Below the pieces are notes generated by a model, which was not told the origin of the DNA, did no database searches, and saw only the letters and a program-made list of their open reading frames with translations. 33,522 bases of DNA, from IMG/VR virus record IMGVR_UViG_3300017728_000056, positions 1-33,522 of that record; one strand, 5' to 3'. The DNA is from a virus. This document shows, one piece after another, positions 26,618-29,693 of the stretch; the first letter of the stretch is position 1; each line of letters opens with the position of its first letter. A program made the translations under genes and the position numbers.

Positions 26618-26908
26618 ATGGCCGATTTTCCACAAGATGCTTTCACTCTTTGGTTCAATTGCAACAAAGATCAGAAAACAGAAGGAGCCTATTGGGCATC
26701 TTCTGAAGTTCCTATTGAAGAGCTTCGCAAGCTCTGTGCATGGATTAAAGACGCTCCAAAAACCACAAACGACAAGGGCCAGCAATGCGTTCAGCTACGG
26801 GCTGGCCTTCGCCCTAGGGTGAGCAAGGCTGGCAACGATTATCTGTTGCTTGCGATTAGCGATCAAAAGCCACGCAAGCCGGAGGCAAACAACAACATCG
26901 ATTTTTGA
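26618..26908 (+). CDS. Hypothetical protein downstream of the annealase module (96 aa)
   Basis: Starts at ATG 26618, just after the previous TAA. Features: 'AFTLWFNCNKDQKTEGAYW', then 'EVPIEELRKLCAWIKDA', 'GLRPRVSKAGNDYLLLAIS', and a short acidic C-terminus. The final strand set would fit a small OB-type or phage ssDNA-binding-like protein, and an SSB next to an ERF/exonuclease pair would make sense, but I do not see a diagnostic motif. Unknown function with a weak hypothesis. Confidence 0.55.
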   Translation: MADFPQDAFTLWFNCNKDQKTEGAYWASSEVPIEELRKLCAWIKDAPKTTNDKGQQCVQLRAGLRPRVSKAGNDYLLLAISDQKPRKPEANNNIDF

Positions 26909-27009
26909 TACTTGGGGCATCAAGTGGGCCAGGGCCGAAAGGACTGGCGGGGGTGGATCCCAGTTGACCGCTTCGTGTAAGACCCCAACCCCCGACCTAA
27001 CTTGAGGAG
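26909..27009 (+). ncRNA. Hairpin-rich non-coding element (candidate structured RNA)
   Basis: A 101-nt interval made almost entirely of inverted repeats on the plus strand. Hairpin 1: ACTTG-GGGCAT-CAAGT at 26910-26925. Hairpin 2: CCAG/CTGG at 26929-26932 and 26944-26947 with an inner CC-GAAA-GG stem, i.e. a GNRA tetraloop. Hairpin 3: CGGGGGT at 26948-26954 pairs with ACCCCCG at 26988-26994 and encloses a small CGC-TTC-GTG stem. No T-run follows, so it is not a simple terminator. It lies upstream of the 50-aa gene with GAGGAG directly before its ATG. Structure is read directly; RNA function is inferred. Confidence 0.5.
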
Positions 27010-27162
27010 ATGTCAGAACCAACTCTCAAGCGCGTGTCAAAGAATGGTGAATGGGTTTGGGAGATTACTTGCAACGGAATGACCCGTTATCACGCTCAAG
27101 ATTGGCAAGCTCGCTGGATTTACGAACAGGCGTTGCGCCTTTATTCCAAGCAAGCAAGCTGA
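27010..27162 (+). CDS. Small protein (50 aa) after the structured element
   Basis: An ATG at 27010 preceded directly by GAGGAG opens 50 codons to a TGA at 27162. The protein starts MSEPTLKRVSKNGEWVWEI and continues with 'NGMTRYHAQDWQARWIYEQ', so it has five Trp residues and looks folded. Its 3' end overlaps the convergent gene at 27141 by 22 nt. Function unknown. The strong Shine-Dalgarno-like sequence next to the hairpins suggests that translation is regulated by RNA structure. Confidence 0.55.
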   Translation: MSEPTLKRVSKNGEWVWEITCNGMTRYHAQDWQARWIYEQALRLYSKQAS

Positions 27163-27356
27163 GCATCCATGTCTGCAATGCGGCTAACGGCTTGGCCTAA
27201 AAGCTTGCGTTGATGCCAGTTCTGGCGCACCAAAGAAGCGCATAAGCCTTGAACCTCTTCAATGTCTTCGGTGTTGTAAATAGAGCGAACCGAACGTTCC
27301 ATCATTAGCTCTTCATGAAGAGTCTGTTCTGCAATCATCCATTTCATGTCGTCCAT
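27141..27356 (-). CDS. Hypothetical helical protein (71 aa)
   Basis: I prefer the ATG at 27356, which is preceded by GGAG at a good distance, to the ATG at 27428 that would double the overlap with the upstream gene. The protein is helical: MDDMKWMIAEQTLHEELMM, 'RSIYNTEDIEEVQGLCASL', 'RQNWHQRKLLGQAVSRIAD'. It resembles short proteins I recall from cyanophages and cyanobacteria with the phrase 'LVxQNWHQxKLLG'. Function unknown. It overlaps the convergent 50-aa gene at its 3' end. Confidence 0.55.
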   Translation of the reverse strand: MDDMKWMIAEQTLHEELMMERSVRSIYNTEDIEEVQGLCASLVRQNWHQRKLLGQAVSRIADMDAQLACLE

Positions 27357-27552
27357 TGCTGCGCTCCACTGACTCCAAGATTTTGCGCTCCTCAGCGTAA
27401 GGAGGCTGCTTAGCTCGAATGTAGTCATGGAACGCAGGAACTAGCCACTCTTGCGGCGGCCAACAGTTATCCCAATTCACCGGCTTGGCACAATTGACAA
27501 CGACTGTTGACCAAAAGGCAATCAGATATGACCACAACCAATACAAGCCCAT
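27313..27552 (-). CDS. Small membrane or secreted protein (79 aa)
   Basis: ATG at 27552 in TAATG with the dCTP deaminase stop. The N-terminus 'MGLYWLWSYLIAFWSTVVV' is a hydrophobic segment that would anchor in the membrane or be a signal peptide, although it lacks Lys or Arg before it. After it come two Cys and a Pro-rich, aromatic part (KPVNWDNCWPPQEWL). The last ~30 residues are charged and are partly encoded over the next gene. Not recognised. Confidence 0.5.
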   Translation of the reverse strand: MGLYWLWSYLIAFWSTVVVNCAKPVNWDNCWPPQEWLVPAFHDYIRAKQPPYAEERKILESVERSNGRHEMDDCRTDSS

Positions 27553-29429: not shown

Positions 29430-29693
29430 ATGGCAGACCCAAAGGAAAATGAAGACAAAGACGGGTTTTCAACGGCAGATCTTGTTAAATGCGCTGTTTT
29501 GATCTGGAGCGCAACATTGCTAACCGTTTCTTATTTGGGGGTTTTCCCTCAAATGAAAATGGATAATACGTTTGTGGCGAGCCTTTTAACGGGTGCAATG
29601 GCAAGTTTTGGTATTGAACGTAAATCTGCGAATCAGCAAAAGAAAGCACCACCTAAAGTTGAACCACCTGTCAAAACGCCTCCAACAAAATGA
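29430..29693 (+). CDS. Small membrane protein, holin-like (87 aa)
   Basis: Starts at ATG 29430. Polar N-terminus, then a hydrophobic segment at about 20-38 ('KCAVLIWSATLLTVSYLGV'), a second less hydrophobic one at about 48-62 ('FVASLLTGAMASFGI'), and a Lys/Pro-rich C-terminus (KKAPPKVEPPVKTPPTK). This is a plausible class II holin layout. It is the first gene of a plus-strand operon of secreted proteins, with an ATGA overlap to the next start. Its divergent position opposite the lysis-like operon suggests coordinated expression. Confidence 0.55.
   Translation: MADPKENEDKDGFSTADLVKCAVLIWSATLLTVSYLGVFPQMKMDNTFVASLLTGAMASFGIERKSANQQKKAPPKVEPPVKTPPTK

Follow-up and report, generated by a model that had tools for sequence, protein, structure and literature searches.

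The window, a virus record of 33.5 kb analysed over its whole length, raises the question of what occupies a short interval (26909-27009) between the TGA stop codon of one gene (26906-26908) and the GAGGAG-ATG start of another (ATG at 27010), and what it may do there. Folding of the window sequence alone was not unusual (z +0.43 for 131 nt and z -1.23 for the 77-nt core), and a search of the window with Rfam 15 (4227 models) produced no match at or above the gathering threshold, so the claim of a structured element, as made in an earlier note on this DNA, would be weak if it rested on one sequence. That claim was supported across relatives and not by folding of a single sequence. Judging from the comparison of related sequences, the structured RNA in the interval is real and conserved, and its conserved fold is a three-way junction on the + strand.

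Members of the family and their flanking genes

The last gene before the element encodes a 96-aa protein (26618-26908, + strand) and ends 5 nt before it. No match for this protein was found in Pfam or PHROG. When the protein was used as a query against viral contigs, 41 related loci were identified, and in 15 of them (L001-L014 and L041) a related element was found straight after the gene. DNA patterns brought in further carriers (L081, L097, L123, L139, L185, L198 and L216). A total of 19 distinct elements, mostly 77-82 nt in length, were obtained, all from IMG/VR contigs of uncultured marine viruses. Contig L005 carried two tandem and clearly different copies at 670-857 with an apparent gene-end remnant preceding the second copy, an arrangement which suggests recombination. 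By eye, the 96-aa protein has an SSB-like acidic tail, and an SSB stands in its place in L081, L123 and L139; it is perhaps an unrecognised ssDNA-binding protein.

The interval had been described as non-coding, and nothing conserved was found to be encoded in it, with member lengths differing by non-multiples of 3 and frames breaking between members. Stop-codon readthrough was rejected: in the window the frame runs on as far as the UAA of GUGUAAG, which is not so in other members such as L001. The GAGGAG and ATG were present after the interval as the earlier note had stated, forming a strong Shine-Dalgarno sequence and the start of a 50-aa ORF (27004-27162 together, + strand). This ORF (27010-27162, +) belongs to PHROG 36325, to which no function is assigned, and is kept in many relatives though the gene upstream is swapped. 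A convergent gene for a 95-aa protein follows at 27141-27428 on the - strand. Elsewhere in the window, an 87-aa protein (29430-29693, +) matched Pfam DUF6450 (PF20048) with an E value of 2e-15. The RepA-like helicase and the 95-aa protein of the window had distant relatives only in the Synechococcus siphoviruses S-CBS1, S-CBS3 and KBS-S-2A, and from the related isolates the hosts would be marine Synechococcus.

No carrier was found among the isolate phages searched, and the element was absent from the stretches read in isolates KBS-S-2A, S-CBS1 and S-CBS3 (L266-L268). The GTDB genomes produced six matches, none convincing and all judged by eye to be chance, and relaxed patterns over the viral contigs produced the same family and chance matches only (best stray 14 bits). 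Lax Rfam scans of the window and L216 elements showed only sub-threshold matches of about 17 bits or less. A second site elsewhere in the contig was not found in nine carrier contigs, and eleven contigs from relatives without the element at the operon end did not contain it anywhere. Overall, this is apparently an undescribed structured RNA family, so far limited to one marine cyano-siphovirus group.

Fold of the element and evidence for it

Covariance model R1 matched the whole 77-nt three-way junction at 26912-26988 on the + strand with 93.4 bits and an E value of 1.2e-25 (its own sequence being in the model), and this was the sole match in the window. Both ends are brought together by the outer stem P1, in which UGGGG (26913-26917) pairs with CCCCA (26983-26987); the family consensus is GRGG/CCYC and the relatives show GC/AU/UA exchanges. 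An asymmetric internal loop sits between P1 and P2, with CAUCA on its 5' side (26918-26922), invariant in all 19 distinct sequences, and (U or GA)CGURUAAG together with a single unpaired base on its 3' side. The latter consists of a bulge next to P2 (UCG, 26973-26975; C and G invariant, GACG in L001, L004 and L012) and of URUAAG (26976-26981), of which UAAG is invariant and the base before it is G except in the L139 and L143/L010 elements, which have A. P2 is formed by AGUGG (26923-26927; family WGYGG) and CCGCU (26968-26972; family CCGCK), with a G-U pair in three sequences. The P3 hairpin (26928-26948) carries an invariant GAAA tetraloop (26937-26940), and its length is near-constant (7-8 layers, about +/-1) while its sequence changes through compensatory GC/AU, CG/UA, AU/CG/GC and CG/GC/UA pairs, the first three of these exchanges being read from a hand alignment. 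The P4 hairpin (26950-26961) is variable in sequence and loop length, with GC replaced by CG at one pair and several pair types at another, and a variable linker of 5-6 nt, J4/2 (26962-26967), leads back to P2. In three contigs, a 44-nt insert was found in the P3 bulge (L002 5295-5417, L003 2460-2582 and L004 1414-1533); the insert is near-identical in these contigs, which otherwise differ. For the insert-bearing types (L002, L004), alternative folds lay about 6-7 kcal/mol below the consensus fold, which is still possible.

The GNRA hairpin of the earlier note (CC-GAAA-GG) is present and its CGAAAG cap occurs in 19 of the 19 distinct sequences. The proposed three side-by-side hairpins gave way to a junction closed by a long-range stem. 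A 7-bp G/C stem, CGGGGGT (26948-26954) with ACCCCCG (26988-26994), does exist in the window but is not conserved, as the relatives lack the 3' arm and read CACTCTTCG or CACCACCGACC there; it was therefore rejected as a conserved helix. The CTTG/CAAG hairpin at the left edge was missing in L004, L006, L139, L185, L198 and L216. Also rejected were a UGAUGC/GCAUCA switch hairpin with the stop codon, which was not conserved, a UCAA/UUGA pseudoknot, which was lost in L001, L185 and L216, and a likeness by eye to HDV, hammerhead, twister and glutamine riboswitch, for which there was no match and no Rfam support.

The covariance analysis in related phages proposed by the earlier note was positive. 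In the alignment of the 19 distinct sequences fitted to the covariance model, 92.1% of the cells were paired and 31 cells were doubly changed compared to 9.3 in shuffles. An unfitted MAFFT alignment produced similar values (90.4% of cells pairing; 26 doubly changed cells, with shuffles giving 9.0), and pairing fell to about 45-56% in a control where the partners were slid by one base. The alifold consensus fold showed a z of -5.4 against column-shuffled alignments, with none of 500 shuffles as good. Compensatory base changes thus exceeded the controls, as is generally expected of structured RNA. P2 carries little of this evidence because it hardly varies. In the scored helix pairs, seven G-U cells were found against one A-C cell (p 0.035), and the molecule that folds is therefore probably the + strand RNA.

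The internal loop resembles a known tertiary motif. The classical 11-nt GAAA receptor consists of CCUAAG facing UAUGG and contains an A-A platform and a U that is flipped out (PMC11381326, PMC3494683). The element has an invariant GAAA and an asymmetric loop with the core U-A-A-G / A-U, reading URUAAG / CAUCA, in which UAAG and AU are the same as in the classical receptor and invariant. However, the flanking pairs differ, being U-A and G-C (not C-G and C-G) and G-C (not G-U); these are other Watson-Crick pairs, and an A-C mismatch occurs only in the L139 and L143/L010 elements. The chance of an exact match at the six fixed bases in a single register is about 1 in 4000. The receptor-like loop lies about 7 pairs from the junction along P2, and together with the invariant GAAA on P3 and the steady length of P3 this suggests fold-back and docking of P3. 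The GAAA of P3 may thus dock into the loop between P1 and P2.

Position at the end of the rightward operon

Whichever gene comes last in the rightward operon, the element begins 4-13 nt beyond the stop codon of that gene. The last gene encodes the 96-aa protein, a variant 101-aa protein (L097) or an SSB by sequence (L081, L123 and L139), and it is an 87-aa gene in L185 and L198 and a 58-aa gene in L216. In L216, the 58-aa gene has been added behind the 87-aa gene and the element still stands at the operon end. For L185, L198 and L216, the element occupies the entire gap between two convergent stop codons and ends 2 nt from that of the homologue of the 95-aa gene; the 50-aa ORF is not found downstream in these three. 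In most carriers, the 50-aa ORF with its strong Shine-Dalgarno begins about 20 nt after P1 on the same strand. In L234, L240 and L242, the ORF is present but the element is not, and no recognisable terminator was found there either. Since the last genes are unlike each other and the ORF and the element are found separately, the element goes with the end of the rightward operon and not with any one of the neighbouring genes.

The earlier note had held that the interval is not an ordinary terminator as no T-run follows it. In agreement, the terminator scan of the window between 26400 and 27500 produced no terminator-like site, and no T-run follows the element in the other members except for TTTTT in L013/L014. 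Because it has no U-run, the element is not an intrinsic terminator by itself. It holds the same operon-end place as the terminators of some relatives, but it is a complex junction rather than a simple hairpin. Relative L033, without the element, has a terminator at the same spot (7-bp stem and T7), as have L034 and L035 by eye. In L015-L028, also without the element, an 11-bp hairpin followed by CTTTT was seen by eye at this spot, though the terminator scan did not flag L015. The terminator-like hairpins of L015-L028 and L033-L035 lie just after the homologue of the 96-aa protein gene and directly in front of the 50-aa ORF homologue, whose start codon they nearly touch; they possibly attenuate or insulate this ORF.

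Possible roles of the element

The reading tentatively favoured here, with somewhat less than an even chance, is a 3'-UTR RNA domain that would shape, protect or process the mRNA end and separate operons. The mRNA of the rightward (exonuclease/RusA/Erf/ssb) operon in this marine cyano-siphovirus group would be transcribed with a compact, tertiary-folded RNA domain as its tail, in which P1 would draw the domain ends together and the P3 GAAA loop would probably dock in the receptor-like loop. Such a knot at the message end would most likely protect or set the mRNA 3' end, by blocking 3'-5' exonucleases or by placing a processing site. It would also set the rightward operon apart from the small ORF and from the convergent operon that lies further on, standing where some relatives have a terminator-like hairpin. 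Several observations speak against this reading. The element has no U-run, and in most genomes the 50-aa ORF follows on the same strand behind a strong Shine-Dalgarno of its own, so transcription must pass through or restart. L234, L240 and L242 have this ORF but neither the element nor a recognisable terminator. P2 is almost invariant, beyond the needs of a plain barrier, which suggests a specific binder, a target or catalysis. The lower-energy alternative folds of the insert-bearing types (L002, L004) also count against it.

Among known systems, the sib retroregulator of int in phage lambda is a simple RNase III hairpin/terminator. As is proposed for the element, sib is a phage RNA structure that lies 3' of the message it acts on; unlike the element, it is not a three-way junction. 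The L17 downstream element (Rfam RF01708) is a structured RNA tied to the ribosomal protein L17 gene, and the same source mentions a phage case of upstream-gene regulation, not named in the passage concerned (PMC2864571). The L17 downstream element, as presented there, and the present element are both structured RNAs in a putative 3' UTR (PMC2864571), but no sequence match was found between them and the upstream gene varies here. The manA, wcaG and PhotoRC-II RNAs of marine cyanophages are located for the most part in the 5' UTRs of genes for metabolism or photosynthesis (PMC2864571). These are structured RNAs of marine cyanophages as the element is, whereas the element lies at an operon 3' end and has no Rfam match.

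A trans-acting small RNA, either released from the operon 3' end or made there, is possible if somewhat unlikely; the P1-P2-P3 core would serve as its scaffold and the variable P4 would face the target. It would fit the strongly conserved core with one fast-changing arm, the independence of the core from the flanking genes and the tandem unlike copies in L005. However, no promoter-like site was found by consensus match just upstream on the + strand, the variability of P4 may merely reflect lack of constraint, and there is no known target. A more far-reaching proposal, which we regard as doubtful, is a new functional class of phage RNA. In it, a tetraloop-receptor-clamped three-way junction, catalytic or protein-binding, would generate defined mRNA 3' ends where convergent operons meet, with no need of an intrinsic terminator, and would travel as a portable 3'-end cassette that keeps its place at the operon end while the preceding genes are exchanged.

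It is quite improbable that the element is a new self-cleaving ribozyme which, by cutting the polycistronic RNA behind the upstream gene, would give a 3' end without a terminator. The junction is compact with many invariant unpaired bases, it sits at gene ends and tandem copies occur, but no Rfam ribozyme (hammerhead, HDV-like, twister or other) matched, no conserved cleavage-site pattern was recognised, and a tetraloop-receptor contact accounts for much of the conservation. Little credence is likewise given to a role in the 5' leader of the 50-aa ORF, as a riboswitch or riboregulator, which is close to the idea of the earlier note. The ORF with its strong Shine-Dalgarno does follow in most carriers, but this reading is largely contradicted by the occurrence of ORF and element without each other, which leaves no consistent placement upstream of a regulated gene; the RNA tracks the upstream operon end, and no conserved anti-Shine-Dalgarno or terminator switch was found. 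Finally, a DNA-level element that is RNA-like in appearance only (an origin, packaging or recombination site, the first two being earlier suggestions) is very unlikely. It would fit the reshuffling of upstream genes, P4 types and copies around the element, which is what an exchange point would show. Against it, pairing is kept by compensatory changes, G-U exceeds A-C by 7 to 1, and the GAAA and the asymmetric loop are strand-specific.

The element would make a new Rfam entry. If docking holds, it may represent a natural GAAA contact with a receptor deviating from the classical sequence. Phage 3' UTRs rarely contain structured RNAs, and those that do occur have received little study. To our knowledge, marine Synechococcus lacks Rho, so how the phages of such hosts end and protect their transcripts is a question, and the element offers a small, defined object for studying it.
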